Assembly (NCBI GenBank): GCA_020628085.1
Contig: JAHDFQ010000038.1
Span: forward strand, 1 to 32,457
Length of the DNA: 32,457 nucleotides
Direction: 5' to 3'
Source of the DNA: Saprospiraceae bacterium
Lineage (GTDB): Bacteria; Bacteroidota; Bacteroidia; Chitinophagales; Saprospiraceae
The position numbers and the translations under genes are program-made. The notes under the pieces were generated by a model. That model ran no database searches, was not told where the DNA came from, and worked only from the letters and a program-made list of their open reading frames with translations. Positions 679-7,294 of the stretch are shown piece by piece; the first letter of the stretch is position 1, and every line of letters starts with the position of its first letter.

Positions 679-3600
679 ATGGCATTGTTTCAAAAGTCTG
701 TACTACAGAAGCATTTAAAAACACTAGAAGGTAACGCAAAAATAGAAAAAGCCTACTCGGATTTTGTAGCCTATTTCCATAATCCTACCATTCAAGAAAA
801 TATCCGCAAATCTAAGGAAGAGCAATTTCAAGCAGGTTTTTTGAGAGCCTTATTTGTGAAAAATTTGGGTTATACGCTCAATCCTGATCCTGATTTTAAC
901 CTGACGACCGAGCTTAAAAATGTCAAGAATAGTAAAAAAGCCGATGGCGCAATTTTACTAGACGGCAAAGCGATAGCAGTAGTGGAGTTAAAAGGTATGA
1001 ATACGCCTGATCTTTCTAAAGTAGAGGCACAAGCATTTGGTTATAAAAACAATCAACCCGATGCGGTTTATGTCATTACTTCTAATTTTCAAAAATTGCG
1101 ATTTTACATTGACAATGCCATTGAGTTTATAGAGTTCAATTTGTTTACGCTTACCAAAGAACAATTCTATCTATTGTGGCTATGTTTGGCAAAGGAAAGT
1201 ATTTTTAAACATCTTCCTAAAAAAGTCAATACGGCTTCGGTGATGGAAGAAGAAAACGTCACCAAAAAGTTATACAAAGATTATTCTGCCTTTAAAAATG
1301 CGTTGTTTAACGATTTGGTGCGCCAAAATCCAGATATAGATCAACTATTGTTGTTCAAAAAATCACAAAAGCTCATTGATCGGTTTTTGTTTATCTTTTT
1401 TGCGGAGGATAAAGGCTTATTACCGCCCAATTCGATTACTCAAATTGTCAAAACTTATGACACTCTCAAACAAGCCGATTTTGAAAAACCCTTATACGAG
1501 GTCTTTCAACAATATTTTGGTTATATCAATAGTGGACGACCAGCCAAAGGTGATAAAGCCGAAATATTTGCGTTCAATGGTGGTTTGTTTGCCCCTGATC
1601 CAATGTTGGATGAACTCATTATTTCTGATAGTATTTTGATGAATCATACCTTGGTATTATCGGGTTATGATTTTGAAACAGAAGTAGATGTAAACATCTT
1701 AGGTCATATTTTTGAACACTCACTCAATGAGATAGACGAAATGACCGCCCAGCTCGAAGGGCAAACCATCGACAAAAGCAAAACCAAACGTAAAAAGGAC
1801 GGTGTGTTTTACACGCCCAAATATATCACCAAGTACATTGTAGATAATACCGTTGGAAAACTTTGTCAAGATAAAAAAACGGAATTAGAACTCTTAGAAG
1901 TTGACTACTCCAAGAACTATATCAACGCTAAAAAACGAACTAATAAAGACGGTAAAAAAACCAACCTTTCGGTAGAAGGAGAAACGATTTTAGAACACCT
2001 ACGAAGCTATCGAGCATATTTGTTGGAACTGACGATTTGCGACCCTGCTTGTGGTAGTGGTGCGTTTCTCAATCAAGCCCTCGACTTTCTGATAAAAGAA
2101 CACCAACACATAGACGAACTAGAAGCCCAACTGCTAAATGTACCTATGGTCTTATCCGATATTACCAATGATATTTTGGAGCGTAATATTTATGGTGTAG
2201 ACATCAACGAAGAATCCGTAGAAATTGCCCGTTTGTCCTTGTGGCTACGATCCGCCAAAAAAGGTCGTGCCTTGACCACGTTGAGCAATAATATCAAATG
2301 CGGTAATTCGCTCATAGATGATCCCGAAGTAGCGGGTGACAAAGCCTTTCATTGGGAAACGGAGTTTCCGAGTGTGTTTAGACTCAAAGAAAAACAGGCT
2401 TTTCATGTGGTGTTGACAACACACAATAGTCGAACATCGCAGCGTATGATTGATTATGGTATTGAAAAAGGTGAACCCATAGAATTAGGTTTGGAGGAAG
2501 AAATTGAATTGACGAAAATCTTTGCCACTTTAATGCTTGAATACAATTACCATTGTTTAGCTTATAATGTGTGTAAAGATCATGTGCATCTGATATTGGT
2601 GTGTGAAGCGAATGAAATAACGGATATTGTTCAAAAACTAAAATCTATTAGTAGTAAAGAGTTTAGGCGGTTGGATATTTCAATGGGTCATGACCCATTG
2701 GAGCATAAGGGTTTCTGGTCGCAAAAATTCTATTATGCAGCACTGGACGAATGGACATTGGCTACCACCGCTACTCGATCGGGCTATTTGTACAACGATG
2801 CGCATTTGGGCAATGCCATCGCCTATATTCAAACCAATCGTCAAAAACATGATCTTCCTGAAAGTACTGAACTCCAAAACATCATCGACACATTTATTAC
2901 GACGCAAGACCTCGCTTTCGCCCCCGAATATACAGGTGGTTTTGATGTGGTGATTGGGAATCCGCCTTATTTAGGTGGGAGAGATTGGAAAAAAGAAGAT
3001 GGCAGAGATTATGAATATCTAGTTTCCAAGTATGAAGTAGCTGAATATCAATTTGATATGTATGTTATTTTTTGGGAAAGAGGCTTGAAAATATTGAAAA
3101 AAGATCGTCTTTTAGGTTTTATCACGCCTGTCACATGGCTAAATAATCAGAAAACAAAAAAACTTAGAAAGTATATTCTAAATCAAACGTCCATTTTAGA
3201 AATTTTAGATTTTTCCAATGTGAATGTTTTTAAAGATGCAGTAGTTCTCACAATGATAGGTATTATTAAAAATGAAAATAATGAGAAAGATAATAAAGTG
3301 AGAATTGGAGTCGCAAATTCAGAATCAATACCAATGGAGTTTAATTACTTGCAGCAAAAAAATTGGATTGATGAAGAACTTAGTATTATTAACACAAATT
3401 TGAAAGAAGAAGACATAATAATTAAGAATAAACTAGAATCGTTAGGTAAACCTTTAGAGGTTTTTTCATTAGTTAAATTTGGAATCAAAATCTATGAAAC
3501 GGGTAAAGGAAATCCTCCTCAAAATAAGAATGCAGCAAAAGAGAAAATTTTTGAAGCTACTAAGCAATTAGAATCTGATTATAGACCTTACTTAGAAGGA

Positions 3601-4311
3601 AAGGACATTGATACTTATGTTATCAAATATCAGGATAGATGGCTTAAATATGGTAAAAACTTGGCAGCACCTAGAACACCAGACTTATTTGAAGGTGAAA
3701 GACTTTTAGTTAGACGAATTGTCGGTAAAGGTTTGATAGCTATGTATGTAAATACAGATTATGTTACGAGCCAATTATTGCAAATAGTAAAACCTTATGA
3801 CAGTAAAAATTCAAAGTATTTATTGGGGATACTAAATTCTTCTTTGATTGGCTTTTATTTTAGAAAGAAGTATAATAGAGTAGATAAAACTTTTCCTGAG
3901 ATACGTATATATGAATTAAGAGCTTTACCAGTAGTTTTTGGAACTGATAAAGAACAAGAAAAGCTAGCAGCCAATGTTGATAAAATAATAGGACTTAAGA
4001 AAAATGAATTTGTTTTAGCTTCCAAATTCACCCGTCTCCTTCAGCGCAAATTCACCCTCGAAAAACTGCCCAAAAAACTTCAAAGCTGGCATACCTTGAC
4101 CTTTGCAGAGTTTGTCAAAGAACTCAAAAAGAAAAAGATCAAGCTTGGTTTGGCAGAGGAAGCCGAGTGGGAGGATTATTTTGAAACCGAAAAAGCCAAA
4201 GCACTCGCCATACAAAGCACCATCGATCAGACGGACAAAGAAATTGACCAAATGGTGTATGCGTTGTATGGTTTAACGGAAGAAGAAATACGGATAGTGG
4301 AGGAACGTTAG
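679..4311 (+). CDS. Type IIG (Eco57I-like) restriction-modification enzyme with an inserted Y1/RAYT-type HUH transposase domain
   Basis: This 1210-residue single-chain enzyme should cut DNA and methylate adenine. The N-terminus has a PD-(D/E)XK nuclease core (Asp89, then Glu103-Leu-Lys105 after a hydrophobic strand). The gamma-class N6-adenine methylase follows: motif X around G-V-F-Y-T-P (375-380), motif I D-P-A-C-G-S-G (455-461), an Asp-containing strand Y-G-V-D (505-508) and motif IV N-P-P-Y (761-764). A specificity domain occupies about 950-1130, with a C-terminal helical tail. Between motifs I and IV, residues about 570-745 are a foreign Y1/REP-associated-transposase-like domain with an HUH motif (H635-V-H637) and a candidate nucleophile Tyr716 in A-Y-I-Q-T-N-R-Q-K-H. 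No separate methylase or specificity gene lies nearby. The stretch coding for the specificity domain is clearly more AT-rich than its flanks. The R-M class is firm; activity of the inserted domain is unknown. Confidence 0.9.
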   Translation: MALFQKSVLQKHLKTLEGNAKIEKAYSDFVAYFHNPTIQENIRKSKEEQFQAGFLRALFVKNLGYTLNPDPDFNLTTELKNVKNSKKADGAILLDGKAIAVVELKGMNTPDLSKVEAQAFGYKNNQPDAVYVITSNFQKLRFYIDNAIEFIEFNLFTLTKEQFYLLWLCLAKESIFKHLPKKVNTASVMEEENVTKKLYKDYSAFKNALFNDLVRQNPDIDQLLLFKKSQKLIDRFLFIFFAEDKGLLPPNSITQIVKTYDTLKQADFEKPLYEVFQQYFGYINSGRPAKGDKAEIFAFNGGLFAPDPMLDELIISDSILMNHTLVLSGYDFETEVDVNILGHIFEHSLNEIDEMTAQLEGQTIDKSKTKRKKDGVFYTPKYITKYIVDNTVGKLCQDKKTELELLEVDYSKNYINAKKRTNKDGKKTNLSVEGETILEHLRSYRAYLLELTICDPACGSGAFLNQALDFLIKEHQHIDELEAQLLNVPMVLSDITNDILERNIYGVDINEESVEIARLSLWLRSAKKGRALTTLSNNIKCGNSLIDDPEVAGDKAFHWETEFPSVFRLKEKQAFHVVLTTHNSRTSQRMIDYGIEKGEPIELGLEEEIELTKIFATLMLEYNYHCLAYNVCKDHVHLILVCEANEITDIVQKLKSISSKEFRRLDISMGHDPLEHKGFWSQKFYYAALDEWTLATTATRSGYLYNDAHLGNAIAYIQTNRQKHDLPESTELQNIIDTFITTQDLAFAPEYTGGFDVVIGNPPYLGGRDWKKEDGRDYEYLVSKYEVAEYQFDMYVIFWERGLKILKKDRLLGFITPVTWLNNQKTKKLRKYILNQTSILEILDFSNVNVFKDAVVLTMIGIIKNENNEKDNKVRIGVANSESIPMEFNYLQQKNWIDEELSIINTNLKEEDIIIKNKLESLGKPLEVFSLVKFGIKIYETGKGNPPQNKNAAKEKIFEATKQLESDYRPYLEGKDIDTYVIKYQDRWLKYGKNLAAPRTPDLFEGERLLVRRIVGKGLIAMYVNTDYVTSQLLQIVKPYDSKNSKYLLGILNSSLIGFYFRKKYNRVDKTFPEIRIYELRALPVVFGTDKEQEKLAANVDKIIGLKKNEFVLASKFTRLLQRKFTLEKLPKKLQSWHTLTFAEFVKELKKKKIKLGLAEEAEWEDYFETEKAKALAIQSTIDQTDKEIDQMVYALYGLTEEEIRIVEER
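2386..2913 (+). mobile_element. Y1/RAYT-like HUH domain inserted in frame in the R-M gene
   Basis: Residues about 570-745 of the R-M protein follow the REP-associated tyrosine transposase pattern. They start with F-H-V-V-L-T-T-H-N, then comes the HUH strand D-H-V-H-L-I-L, a helix ending S-S-K-E-F-R-R-L, an aromatic G-F-W-S-Q-K-F-Y-Y block, and a final helix with A-Y-I-Q-T-N-R-Q-K-H holding the candidate catalytic tyrosine. It fills the loop between E-F-P-S-V-F and G-G-F-D-V-V-I-G-N-P-P-Y, which in ordinary Eco57I-like enzymes are close together. The frame is open throughout and the key residues are kept, so it has not decayed. Boundaries are approximate. Confidence 0.75.
2681..2700 (+). repeat. 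REP-like palindrome, copy 1, in frame inside the HUH domain
   Basis: A perfect 20-bp palindrome, CAATGGGTCATGACCCATTG, encodes part of S-M-G-H-D-P-L-E. It falls in the loop between the S-S-K-E-F-R-R-L helix and the G-F-W-S-Q-K block of the inserted transposase-like domain. The same 20 bases recur in the intergenic DNA at 7227, so the palindrome is a dispersed repeat and not merely a result of coding. Confidence 0.85.
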
Positions 4312-4778
4312 TACACCGTGCAACTCAAGTTAATTTCAGTTATAAGTTAATTAGAGTATTGTATTTCAAGGGGTCATGACCCCTTGGGACAATCTACCAA
4401 GTATAAGAAACTTATTTTATATAATATTCAAAGTGGTTTTAACCCCCTTGTTGTTCAATACATTACAATGAGCTAAAGCCACATTGGGGTTTTAATTTAC
4501 ATTTATTACATGGTATTAGAAACAGACAGGAGAATCGGTCTAACTGCGTAAGGTATTATTTACTAAGGCTCTTAAATTAAAACAAACTGCCAACCACAGG
4601 AAGGCGCAAAAAACCACCCTTCGTCGAAAAACCTACTTCATTCAACGGTATTTATACAATCGTGGCAAGCGAAATGATTAATTATGCGTTCCAATTAAAA
4701 ATAACATCAAATGCTTAACTTTTGTGAGAATCTGGTGTTCTTTTTCTGTTATTTAGATAAACCATAAGAAAATCAAAA
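4312..4778. other. Intergenic region between the R-M gene and the TonB receptor
   Basis: This 467-bp gap holds REP-like copy 2 and a possible RNA structure at 4441-4491, where AACCCC pairs with GGGGTT around an inner CAATG/CATTG stem and a T-rich stretch follows. It also holds a 45-codon open stretch without an ATG (4544-4681) that codes for a very basic peptide and may be a gene remnant. A near-consensus -7 element (AACTTTTG, 4717-4724) about 55 bp before the receptor gene is a weak promoter candidate. Confidence 0.5.
4367..4386 (+). repeat. REP-like palindrome, copy 2 (variant)
   Basis: CAAGGGGTCATGACCCCTTG is a perfect 20-bp palindrome that differs from copies 1 and 3 only by a compensated T/A to G/C change in both arms. 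Like the others it is preceded by TTT and followed by G. It lies 55 bp after the stop codon of the R-M gene. Confidence 0.85.
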
Positions 4779-7115
4779 ATGTATAAAGCGCTACTATTTT
4801 TAATGCTATTTGGCTATTCGATAATTGCCTCTGCACAAGAAAATTTCACTATCAGTGGTTATGTCAAAGATGCTTCCAATGGCGAGACGCTAATCGGTGC
4901 AAATATCTACAACAAAGATAATGCTGCACAAGGAACAAGTTCAAATATCTATGGATTTTACTCCCTGACTTTACCAAAAGGAACCTACACTTTGGTGTTT
5001 TCCTACCTCGGTTTTTCCGATCAAGAAAAAGTAGTTGAACTGACCGAAAATAGGCGAGTCAATGTCGAAATGTCGGAAGGCGTAACATTCCAAGAAGTGG
5101 TGGTAACGGCAGAAGAACAAGACAAAAATGTAGAAAGTACCGAAATGGGAACGGTAGAGTTGCCGATGGATAAAATCAAAAAGATTCCTGCTCTGATGGG
5201 AGAGGTAGATGTGTTGAAAACGATTCAATTATTACCTGGTGTTTTGTCAGCAGGAGAGGGAAACTCTGGATTTTATGTGCGTGGTGGTGGACCAGATCAA
5301 AACCTGGTTTTATTGGACGAGGCGGTGGTGTATAATTCGGGTCATTTGTTGGGGTTCTTCTCTGTTTTTAATGCTGATGTCATCAAAAATACGACACTTA
5401 TAAAAGGTAGTATGCCCGCATATTATGGTGGTCGTTTGTCTTCGGTGGTCGATATTCAAATGAAGGACGGTAATGATAAAAAGTTTGGTGTAGAAGGTGG
5501 AATTGGCTTAATTTCTTCACGACTAACCGTCGAAGGGCCCATCAAAAAAGAGCAAAGTTCTTTTATTGTTTCAGGACGTCGAACCTATGCTTTGGACTTA
5601 GCGCAACCTGCTATCAATAATACAGATTTCGCTGGAACAAACTATTATTTTTACGATTTGAATGCAAAAATCAATCATCGTTTTTCTGATAAAGATCGTT
5701 TGTTTTTGAGCGGTTATTTTGGTCGTGATGTACTGATCTACAACTCCAATGAACGTGATTTCTTTTTAAGGATGCCTTACGGAAATACAACGGCAACCCT
5801 ACGTTGGAATCACCTATTTACGGATAAATTATTTATGAATGTATCGGCTATTTATAACGATTATGATTTCTCGTTTGATGGTGGACAAGCCGATTTTAGT
5901 GTCGGTTTATTTTCAGGTGTACGCGATTATAATTTTAAAATAGACTTTGATTATTTCCCAAAACCTGAACATCAAATTCAATTTGGTATCAATTATACTT
6001 ATCATAGATTAACTCCGAATATTACGACTGCTTCCAATGGAGAGGTAGAATTTTCAAATGATATTTTACCAAAATACGCACACGAATATGCAGCCTTTAT
6101 TCAAGACGAATGGAAAGTCAATCAAAAATTGACATTAAATATTGGATTGCGTTTATCCGCATTCACGCAAGTGGGACCATACACCAGTAAGATAGACGGG
6201 AGAGAGTTTGATGATCTAGAACCCGTTAAAACATATAGTGGAATTGAACCACGAATCGGTTCAAAATATAGTTTAGATGAGACGTCTTCTATTAAAGCAG
6301 GTATTGCGATTACCAATCAATATGTACATTTAGTAAGTAATTCAACGAGTACTTTGCCCTTGGATGTTTGGGTGCCGAGTAGTGAATTGGTTGAGCCACA
6401 ACGAGGGATTCAATATGCTGTTGGTTATTTCAAAAATCTAAAAGATAATATGTATGAAACATCTGTAGAGGTATATTATAAAGATTTAAGAAATCAAATA
6501 GATTATCGTGAAAACTATGTCAATGACGTAGCAGTCGAAGTGGAAGATGAATTTGTTTTTGGAAAAGGACGTGCATACGGGGTAGAATTTTTTGTAAAAA
6601 AGGCGAAAGGTAAGTTAAATGGTTGGATTGGATATACCTTATCTCGTGCTGAACGTACGTTTGATGACATTAATGACGGGAATACCTTTCCAGCTATCTA
6701 TGATCGAACACATGATTTGTCCATAGTTGCGAATTATGAATTGAGTAAAAAATGGGAATTTGGAGCAGCTTTTATTTATGGAACAGGAAATGCGTTCACC
6801 CCTGTTAAAAGTCTATATTTTATTGATAACAATCTGACGACTGAATACGGTCCAAGAAACAGCGCAAGAGTTCAAGACTATCACCGTTTAGATGTGTCGG
6901 CAACCTACACACCCAAGGCCGATAAAGAGAAAAGCTTCCAATCCGATTGGACATTTTCTGTATATAACATTTACAATAGACAAAATCCTTTTTTCTTGTA
7001 TAATGATTTTGAGACTAATTTAAGTGAAGGAACAGCAAAAGCATCTGCCTTTAAAGTTTCGTTGTTTCCTATTATTCCATCGGTTACTTGGAATTTTAGA
7101 TGGAATCAGAAATAA
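4779..7115 (+). CDS. TonB-dependent outer-membrane receptor with carboxypeptidase-regulatory-like N-terminus
   Basis: This 778-residue protein is an energy-coupled outer-membrane importer. It starts with a clear signal peptide (cleavage near A-S-A-Q, about residue 19-20). A carboxypeptidase-D-regulatory-like domain (about 24-105, I-S-G-Y-V-K-D...G-E-T-L-I-G-A-N) follows, then a plug domain (about 130-235, including V-R-G-G-G-P-D-Q-N and a Y-Y-G-G-R-L-S-S-V-V strand) and a 22-strand-type barrel to the end. It is shorter than SusC proteins, and no SusD-like partner is present. Instead it is followed after 179 bp by a DUF4249-type lipoprotein, a recurrent pairing in Bacteroidota. The substrate cannot be read from the sequence. 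Confidence 0.92.
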   Translation: MYKALLFLMLFGYSIIASAQENFTISGYVKDASNGETLIGANIYNKDNAAQGTSSNIYGFYSLTLPKGTYTLVFSYLGFSDQEKVVELTENRRVNVEMSEGVTFQEVVVTAEEQDKNVESTEMGTVELPMDKIKKIPALMGEVDVLKTIQLLPGVLSAGEGNSGFYVRGGGPDQNLVLLDEAVVYNSGHLLGFFSVFNADVIKNTTLIKGSMPAYYGGRLSSVVDIQMKDGNDKKFGVEGGIGLISSRLTVEGPIKKEQSSFIVSGRRTYALDLAQPAINNTDFAGTNYYFYDLNAKINHRFSDKDRLFLSGYFGRDVLIYNSNERDFFLRMPYGNTTATLRWNHLFTDKLFMNVSAIYNDYDFSFDGGQADFSVGLFSGVRDYNFKIDFDYFPKPEHQIQFGINYTYHRLTPNITTASNGEVEFSNDILPKYAHEYAAFIQDEWKVNQKLTLNIGLRLSAFTQVGPYTSKIDGREFDDLEPVKTYSGIEPRIGSKYSLDETSSIKAGIAITNQYVHLVSNSTSTLPLDVWVPSSELVEPQRGIQYAVGYFKNLKDNMYETSVEVYYKDLRNQIDYRENYVNDVAVEVEDEFVFGKGRAYGVEFFVKKAKGKLNGWIGYTLSRAERTFDDINDGNTFPAIYDRTHDLSIVANYELSKKWEFGAAFIYGTGNAFTPVKSLYFIDNNLTTEYGPRNSARVQDYHRLDVSATYTPKADKEKSFQSDWTFSVYNIYNRQNPFFLYNDFETNLSEGTAKASAFKVSLFPIIPSVTWNFRWNQK

Positions 7116-7144: not shown

Positions 7145-7226
7145 AAAGTCTCTATTTGTTGACGTTTATGAGCTTACAAGGCTGAACTATTACTTGAAAA
7201 AATAGACGTTATTCTAAAGTTTTTTT

Positions 7227-7246
7227 CAATGGGTCATGACCCATTG
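7227..7246 (+). repeat. REP-like palindrome, copy 3
   Basis: CAATGGGTCATGACCCATTG, identical to copy 1, is preceded by a T run and followed by G. It contains an ATG in frame with the lipoprotein gene downstream, which lengthens that open frame by 22 codons. This is a by-product of the repeat and not a real start. Confidence 0.85.
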
Positions 7247-7294
7247 GATTTAAAACAGTTTTTATTAGAATATTTAATAATAAATTCTAAACCA

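Follow-up and report, generated by a model that had tools for sequence, protein, structure and literature searches.

A probably RAYT-like Y1/HUH domain inserted in type IIG restriction-modification enzymes of Bacteroidota, with REP-like palindromes in the fused genes

Introduction

Among described systems, the closest to the one reported here are the RAYT (repetitive extragenic palindrome-associated tyrosine transposase, or TnpA-REP) proteins and the REPtrons, in which a Y1/HUH protein with one tyrosine is found together with short palindromes, the repetitive extragenic palindromes or REPs (PMC2817692, PMC8266576). A layout REP-rayt-REP has been described for RAYTs (PMC2817692), and the dissemination of REPs has been called unresolved (PMC8266576). 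Within the TnpA_Y1 proteins, subclass 2.4 has in-frame REP inserts between the HuH and Y motifs of its tnpA-REP genes (PMC6006769). Here we have analyzed a stretch of 32,457 nucleotides from a Saprospiraceae bacterium (Bacteroidota; positions 1 to 32,457 of contig JAHDFQ010000038.1, assembly GCA_020628085.1), called the window from here on. It contains a type IIG restriction-modification (R-M) gene that carries, in the loop just before methylase motif IV, an in-frame insert with the sequence and predicted fold of a HUH/Y1 domain. We consider it likely that this domain is RAYT-like and that it goes together with REP-like palindromes, in the window and in similar fusion genes elsewhere.

The fusions share with RAYTs and REPtrons the Y1/HUH domain with its short palindromes, a free-standing relative with a palindrome on each side, and a palindrome core that may evolve together with the protein; they differ in that the domain is embedded in an R-M enzyme, the palindrome lies inside the gene, the GTAG tag is lacking and the tyrosine motif reads YIxxNR in place of the YxxNP type (PMC2817692, PMC8266576). 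Like the fusions, subclass 2.4 is known from Bacteroidetes, but its motifs are NH[IFV]H and YIxNNP, whereas the inserts have mostly DHxH and YIxxNRxKH. Its members are described as tnpAREP genes, and the words methylase, methyltransferase and restriction are absent from the main text of that paper (PMC6006769). Type IIG enzymes (Eco57I, PADLOC REase_MTase_IIG) have, as does the window protein, a D...ExK motif, the motifs of an N6-methyltransferase (MTase) and a TaqI_C-like target recognition domain (TRD) in one chain; the Y1 insert before motif IV sets the window protein apart from them. The ShiLan insertion of phage methylases is similarly unspliced, free of in-frame stops, placed between conserved residues and patchy in occurrence, but it hides an HNH nuclease out of frame, whereas the HUH domain of the window is read in the host frame (PMC11855218). 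Rickettsia palindromic elements (mentioned in PMC3733652) are also palindromes found in-frame in coding genes. In searches of the open-licence full texts of PubMed Central we have found no report of an R-M/Y1 fusion, with or without palindromes, and no description of the Y1 subfamily of the insert. We know of no Rickettsia palindromic element linked to a nuclease inside the gene that it has invaded.

Results

A HUH/Y1 domain in the frame of a type IIG enzyme

An earlier note, made from the sequence alone, had proposed that the open reading frame (ORF) 679-4311 contains in frame a HUH motif (H635 and H637) and a tyrosine, Tyr716, of a nuclease domain lying between methylase motifs I and IV. Both the residues and the location are borne out by our analysis (Table 1). 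The extent given at that time (2386-2913, about 175 residues) was right in place, the true one being slightly wider (2380-2934). The insert is bounded by EFPSVF (aa 562-567) and GGFDVVIGNPPY. The Pfam family Y1_Tnp (PF01797) covers aa 608-694 (E 2.6e-11), the NCBIfam IS200 model matched at 7.5e-10, under that model's own cut-off, and a profile of 20 inserts searched against solved chains matched IS200/IS605 TnpA, with 4.8e-5 as the best value. The AlphaFold2 model built from 20 insert sequences had a predicted local distance difference test (pLDDT) of 80 and a predicted template modelling score (pTM) of 0.77, and placed Y716 (model residue 155) within helix 146-157. When this model was compared with the PDB by Foldseek, the best 30 matches were all IS200/IS605-type or REP-associated transposases. 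VIA-align gave a Z of 12.4 for ISDra2 TnpA (2.7 A over 116 residues, 18% identity) and 10.5 for the REP-associated transposase with hairpin (4er8), the first unrelated chain being at 7.8. The predicted fold is that of HUH/Y1 proteins, as the earlier note had supposed. The other check that the note had proposed came out likewise: the insertion recurs in homologues, and H635, H637 and Y716 are kept in 29/29 aligned inserts, where D634, W680, N720 and H724 never vary either. In the divergent fusions L081 and L083 the HxH and the tyrosine motif, read by eye, are kept and D634 is not.

The Pfam match, the fold matches and the conservation in 29/29 inserts rule out a chance HxH and tyrosine. Inteins start with Cys, Ser or Thr and end with Asn plus Cys, Ser or Thr; the insert starts RLKEK and ends EYT before GGFD, with no splice-junction residues at its ends, and an intein was rejected. 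A nuclease hidden in another frame, as in ShiLan, was rejected also, the two out-of-frame ORFs having no Pfam match, and an assembly artefact was discarded since many genomes show the same architecture. IS200/IS605 elements have subterminal hairpins at both ends; no inverted or other repeat marks the ends of the window insert, in a search that did not cover imperfect hairpins systematically. A joint model of methylase, insert and TRD had a pTM of 0.47, and the arrangement of the parts is not readable from it.

The host protein is a type IIG chain by family models and motifs, with nuclease, N6-MTase and TRD together. ORF 679-4311 matched Eco57I (5.2e-45) and TaqI_C (5e-23) in Pfam besides Y1_Tnp, and the PADLOC REase_MTase_IIG model at 1.6e-280. 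Its N-terminal part, judged by motif and by the PADLOC model, has a D...ExK motif from which we take it to be a putative PD-(D/E)XK nuclease; the loop at KADGAILLDGKAIAVVELK is the site of a palindrome insert of about 7 aa in some relatives. Motifs I and IV are invariant in the 18/18 fusion segments aligned, out of 30 fusions in all. Since the R-M parts keep their catalytic motifs, the fusion protein probably still methylates and restricts.

Table 1. Features of the window discussed in the text.
Feature	Position	Strand	Details and basis
Type IIG R-M gene with embedded Y1 domain	679..4311	+	1210 aa; Pfam, PADLOC
KADGAILLDGKAIAVVELK, D...ExK motif of the N-terminal nuclease	937..993	+	motif reading
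Methylase motif I, DPACGSGAF	2041..2067	+	aa 455-463
In-frame insert, Y1/HUH domain	2380..2934	+	185 aa, aa 568-752; Pfam, structure model
HNSRTSQRM, subfamily signature	2422..2448	+	alignment of inserts
DHVH, HUH motif (H635 and H637)	2578..2589	+	29/29 aligned inserts
Perfect palindrome of 20 bp, CAATGGGTCATGACCCATTG, translated MGHDPL, in the HUH-Tyr loop	2681..2700	+	repeat search
FWSQK motif	2713..2727	+	W680 in 29/29; alignment of inserts
YIQTNRQKH, candidate catalytic Y716	2824..2850	+	Y in 29/29 aligned inserts
Methylase motif IV, GGFDVVIGNPPY, directly 3' of the insert	2935..2970	+	aa 753-764; includes NPPY
TaqI_C-like TRD	3586..3933	+	aa 970-1085; Pfam
Second palindrome CAAGGGGTCATGACCCCTTG	4367..4386	+	55 nt 3' of the stop codon; repeat search
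Dispersed MITE-like (miniature inverted-repeat transposable element) element, palindrome (7227-7246) at its centre	7196..7290	+	arms TATTCTAA... and ...TTAGAATA

Palindromes inside the fusion genes

The palindrome found in the window insert has counterparts in nearly all the fusion genes, where the commonest in-frame form is (A)CAAGGGG-N6-CCCCTTG(T), giving peptides such as RGHAPL, REHAPL, KGINPL and KGFKPL. A perfect palindrome of at least 16 bp was present in 29/30 fusion genes, against 2.5 expected from synonymous codon shuffles, and altogether there were 59 palindromes (a handful of them outside this family) against 2.6 expected. In the insert-free homologues only 2/20 genes had one (1.4 expected); the sole family palindrome among them was that of L214, from a genome (G360) that also has a fusion. 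These 20 genes were L214 and 19 of the loci L021-L046; L035, L039 and L040 were not used, and L029, L041, L043 and L045 have no readable gene, and no palindrome either. Synonymous shuffles are a fair test of palindromes and rule out that they are a by-product of the encoded peptide. Palindromes were found in 24/24 genes of the first fusion set, and in the fusions that came later from the phylum search, and were not used to form the idea, the family palindrome was in 4/5, three of the four being near kin.

Classified by the place of the palindrome, 19 genes had it in the loop between the HUH and Tyr motifs, 11 in the N part, nine in the loop behind the tyrosine, seven in the C part and four elsewhere in the insert, from a script that misassigned the loop in L067 (motif DHAH) and L084. 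There were up to five palindromes per fusion gene, nuclease and C-terminal parts included. When 22 palindromes were compared (one per gene or set), nine of the 11 base pairs changed on both sides and 97.1% of the cells paired, against 38-53% in slid controls, a count that describes the variation and is not independent proof because most rows were chosen as palindromic. In the L236 group NKELQLLV stands at the place of the KGLQPL of L063 and L072, and the palindrome is still perfect. Compared with palindrome-free homologues, the palindrome in the loop of the nuclease part adds seven residues in L011, L012 and L214 and six in L064. The core varies: it is ACATGT in L070, TTTAAA in L012 and AGCTAGCT in L084, and another core, GTTTAAAC, differs from that of the window palindrome.

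Occurrence and the insertion site

The fusion architecture was found at one site in diverse Bacteroidota, with close homologues that lack the insert. Of the insert-free homologues, 20 allowed a cut at the site; they have there two residues (in 12), seven residues (in three) or fillers of 10-76 residues (in five), and those of the main group have 54-66% identity to the window protein over the N part. Among 395 genomes of the class, the domain was present in seven, that of the window included: five fusions, one fragment at a contig end (G099) and one free-standing broken copy (G312). A scan of GTDB contigs gave at least 39 loci, and in 22 of those listed the match spanned the whole query or nearly so. 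The loci listed were mostly from Bacteroidota; single metagenome-assembled genomes were labelled Chlorobiota (L070), Ignavibacteriales (L083) and Acetobacter (L081), these labels being unchecked, and L072, labelled Chlorobi, matched from query residue 20 onward. A profile search of 355 genomes of the phylum recovered the window fusion and five more (E 1.9e-32 or better); besides the second piece of one fusion gene, the remaining matches listed were short frames (115-272 aa) with E 8.6e-12 or worse. No relative of the Y1 part was found in the plasmids and phages searched, nor in viral contigs, where another search gave nine loci that match the methylase end alone.

The 30 fusion genes counted above comprise 19 of the GTDB loci together with the window gene, L011, L012, L013, L015, L221 and the five from the phylum search. 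Of the other GTDB loci, L075 and L078 are duplicates of L012 and L015, L073 is free-standing, L088-L100 match the methylase end and nothing else, and L085 and L087 are cut by the contig end, the former with a family palindrome and the latter with a long inverted repeat at the contig end. L081 and L083, each with a palindrome inside the insert, were also left out of the count, as were the fragment L014 and the free-standing, frameshifted L016/L162, which has one family palindrome.

The loop used by the Y1 insert contains other repeats in some insert-free genes: GTCATTGCGAGGAACGAAGCAATC in L032, a close sibling of L012, and 7-residue RITNVDD-like tandem repeats that fill it in L024 and L025. Tandem repeats similar to palindrome halves (15-bp and 18-bp) are found inside the insert in L013 (6183-6239) and L014 (1-99).

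Probable exchange of the insert between R-M genes

The TaqI_C-like TRD diverges strongly among otherwise close relatives. Identity in five of six pairs of fusion genes was 61-90% for the N parts and 68-93% for the inserts, and fell to 32-42% in the TRD-containing C part; in the sixth pair (L080/L082) the C part was 87% identical. One genome, G411, holds two fusion genes (L082 and L221) with 86% identity in the N part, 81% in the insert and 36% in the C part with the TRD. Such alignments make it plain that these R-M genes recombine. Because the TRD-containing C part gives a different picture, comparisons between hosts were restricted to the N part.

On the tree of host N parts (41 rows, leaving out L037 and the distant hosts; L072, although counted for palindromes, is in no tree) the presence or absence of the insert needs 11 changes (10-11 in bootstrap trees, with at least 7 forced), and the carriers were no more clustered than shuffled labels (174/500 shuffles). 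We compared the insert data with five host clades by the approximately unbiased (AU) test. Three were rejected (p 0.0008, 0.0002 and 0.00008) and two were not (p 0.53 and 0.45), p-values that are softer than they look because we chose the clades with the insert tree already in view; a sixth clade was present from the outset. The insertion site of the main group is the same in the distant hosts L013 and L239. Given the divergence of the C part among close pairs, recombination over the conserved flanks was taken as the simplest carrier of the insert, which would have passed from one R-M gene to another through homologous exchange in the methylase sequence on either side of it.

Palindromes across genomes

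The pattern CAAGGGRN6YCCCTTG was present in 14 of the 395 class genomes, namely in 7/7 with the domain and 7/388 of the others (Fisher p 1.2e-11), while its reversed control gave eight matches in six genomes. Six of the nine matches in the seven genomes without the domain were imperfect palindromes, and the three perfect ones belong to G168 and G078. Copies numbered 46 in G360. The looser pattern CAAKGGN8CCMTTG had 36 matches in G398, 13 in G395 and 13 in the window genome. Five of the 13 in G395 are on the fusion contig and the other eight on two contigs with long repeat-rich frames; in G398, where the fusion is the only PF01797 match of the genome, 11 of the 36 are in the L065 locus. The dispersed copies lie between genes and also in-frame in genes, including those of methionyl-tRNA synthetase (G360) and isoleucyl-tRNA synthetase (G406), two MmeI-type R-M genes of G398 (L158 and L159, with up to four per gene) and another methylase gene (L213, in G099).

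In the window genome (G000) the palindrome is the centre of a dispersed MITE-like element (Table 1), with matches of 48-98 bp at 13 places or more, itself included, with 40 of 60 candidates scored; the copies are on contigs C128, C240, C39, C105, C56 and others. Positions 2678-2702 of the window, inside the R-M gene, are identical (25/25) to the core of this element. The 12-mer GGGTCATGACCC, its centre, was found in nine places of the genome, and its reversed control in none, even with one mismatch.

A free-standing relative and the evolution of the core

A free-standing gene of the insert subfamily was found at locus L073, on a Saprospirales contig (start 6013, stop 6520-6522), as sister to the window insert with support 96/99. 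On its flanks are CAAGGGGCTTCAGCCCCTTG, which lies 48 nt upstream of the start, and CAATGGGTTAAAACCCATTG, which lies 32 nt downstream of the stop, the only two matches to the pattern in 12.5 kb; 0/200 shuffles of the locus had two. Both are missed by the perfect-palindrome criterion, their 4-nt centres being unpaired; they have an 8-bp stem and a 4-nt centre, as the window copies have when folded single-stranded. This layout, REP-rayt-REP, makes L073 in our reading of the sequences the strongest single piece that would link the subfamily to REP/RAYT. The window palindromes are placed otherwise, within the R-M gene and after it, not on both sides of the gene.

The class of the palindrome core (CATG, TTAA, TGCA or CTAG) needed seven changes on the insert tree, as few as in only 11/500 shuffles, and nine on the host tree, as few as in 176/500 (23 rows, without L239 and L072 and with four near-copies set aside). 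The core thus appears to follow the insert tree and not the host tree. In 90 palindrome contexts the clearest flank signal was two purines directly 5' of the palindrome. As to the tyrosine motif, N stands four positions after Y716 in 29/29 inserts, unlike the Y---Q motif of IS200/IS605 subclass 1.1. The residue after this N is R in 26/29, K in two and H in one, and never P, so that none is of YxxNP type.

Discussion

Taken together, the fold, the palindromes and the free-standing relative make it likely that the fusions contain a RAYT-like Y1/HUH domain inserted in the loop before motif IV of a type IIG enzyme and accompanied by REP-like palindromes. The domain may act as RAYTs do, by analogy, and we have not classed it as one. 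H635 and H637 would hold the metal and Y716 would cut and rejoin a single strand beside a hairpin in the manner of TnpA-REP, the cognate hairpin being CAAKGG-N8-CCMTTG, with an 8-bp stem and a 4-nt loop when single-stranded. Repeated rounds would have copied the palindromes into tolerant loops of the domain's own gene and, in some genomes, also to sites within other genes or between genes; the frame would stay open because selection keeps only inserts with a multiple of three bases. We infer both the cleavage of DNA and the copying of palindromes by the insert domain from sequences and models. Circumstantially, the palindromes inside the fusion genes and around L073 favour the guess of the earlier note that structured DNA is the target of the domain.

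Several observations weigh against this reading. The divergent fusion L239 has no palindrome of at least 16 bp, and the readable part of the fragment L014 has no family palindrome. The L083 insert carries a different one, AACCGACGATTTAAATCGTCGGTT (1201), with two similar ones downstream (2645 and 4971), as if a different target were in use in this divergent fusion. The perfect family-form palindromes of G168 and G078 exist without a fusion; in G078 both copies are part of longer inverted repeats. Spread is not general either: in G131, G219 and G185 the copies are confined to the fusion gene or its remains, and if these genomes are counted as lacking the pattern the association becomes 4/7 against 7/388 (p 1.1e-5). 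In the window genome 3/4 matches to the strict pattern are another palindrome, and in 22/25 carrier genomes the looser pattern has 1-9 matches, within the 0-11 of non-carriers. Other Y1 genes are present in many carriers and could act in trans. The test of core classes is small and its labels were assigned by the analyst, and L073 and the window insert are long branches whose joining may be overrated. Besides, the classical GTAG tag of REPs is absent (GTAG in 8/90 and GTGG in 6/90 contexts within 12 nt), and YIxxNRxKH is unlike the subclass motifs in the TnpA_Y1 table of PMC6006769.

The conflict between the insert and host trees might also mean that the insert is an unspliced, in-frame selfish Y1 element, carried by its own nuclease into the same codon of new R-M genes, with the palindromes as marks of its activity, an explanation that we find rather doubtful. 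The 11 unclustered changes on the host tree, the three host clades rejected and the common site in the distant lineages L013 and L239 agree with it, and an in-frame homing insertion is already known from a methylase (PMC11855218). Recombination over the conserved flanks would give the same pattern, however, and the C part with the TRD visibly differs among otherwise close relatives. In addition, two clades were not rejected, the p-values are weakened by the choice of clades, the ends of the window insert lack a marking repeat, and neither an intein motif nor a Pfam match in the out-of-frame ORFs was found. On the alternative between domesticated and selfish posed in the earlier note, the patchy occurrence at one site and the tree conflict point to exchange between host genes, which homologous recombination could bring about as well. 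A domesticated accessory domain is somewhat less probable still. The Y1 part would then be immobile and help the R-M enzyme to hold DNA that is single-stranded or forms hairpins, for example when it defends the cell against phages or plasmids, with the palindrome as a site of self-regulation. The strong conservation of catalytic and subfamily residues, the perfect palindrome in one of the two insert loops of most fusion genes even though its letters differ, and the few or no copies elsewhere in several genomes fit such a role; but the presence of as many as five palindromes in one gene, and of dozens at other places in G360 and G398, looks like multiplication rather than one regulatory site, and the conserved HxH and Tyr argue that catalysis is kept.

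We regard as very improbable that another enzyme spreads the palindromes, which would be tolerated in a loop-rich gene where the HUH insert is incidental. That the same methylase loop takes other repeats (in L032, L024 and L025), that many carriers have other Y1 genes and that G168 and G078 have perfect palindromes without a fusion could be explained in this way. Opposed to it are the 33 loci of other Y1 genes (24 from the phylum search and nine in carrier genomes), none of which has a family palindrome, the restriction of the family palindrome among insert-free homologues to L214, whose genome has a fusion too, the lack of another PF01797 match in G398, and the free-standing L073 flanked by family palindromes.

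Returning to a RAYT-like domain inserted in the R-M enzyme, a bolder form of the proposal is possible and we offer it tentatively: the R-M gene would be the vehicle of a complete REP/RAYT system, an unspliced HUH element homing into one methylase codon and writing its palindromes (peptide loops RGHAPL, REHAPL or KGINPL) into the carrier gene and then into other R-M and housekeeping genes. If this were true, a defence enzyme would not only house a palindrome-copying machine but also serve as its protein scaffold. In either form, a RAYT-like domain would be tied into one chain with a restriction enzyme, the site just before motif IV of type IIG methylases accepts a whole foreign nuclease domain, and the palindromes would show one way in which proteins gain loops from DNA repeats. 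The palindromes inside the gene in one relative after another suggest that a defence enzyme has become home to a small DNA-copying system. As the presumed target lies in the gene itself and several core variants occur naturally, each protein can be matched with its target for a direct test.

Other observations

ARAGORN reports no tRNA in the window, and an Rfam tRNA match (35.2 bits) lies at 347-407, upstream of the R-M gene. Among the other fusions, the genes of L012 and L011 stop early (open frames of 872 and 881 aa), by decay or frameshift, and in L012 the C-terminal part is found in a separate frame downstream.

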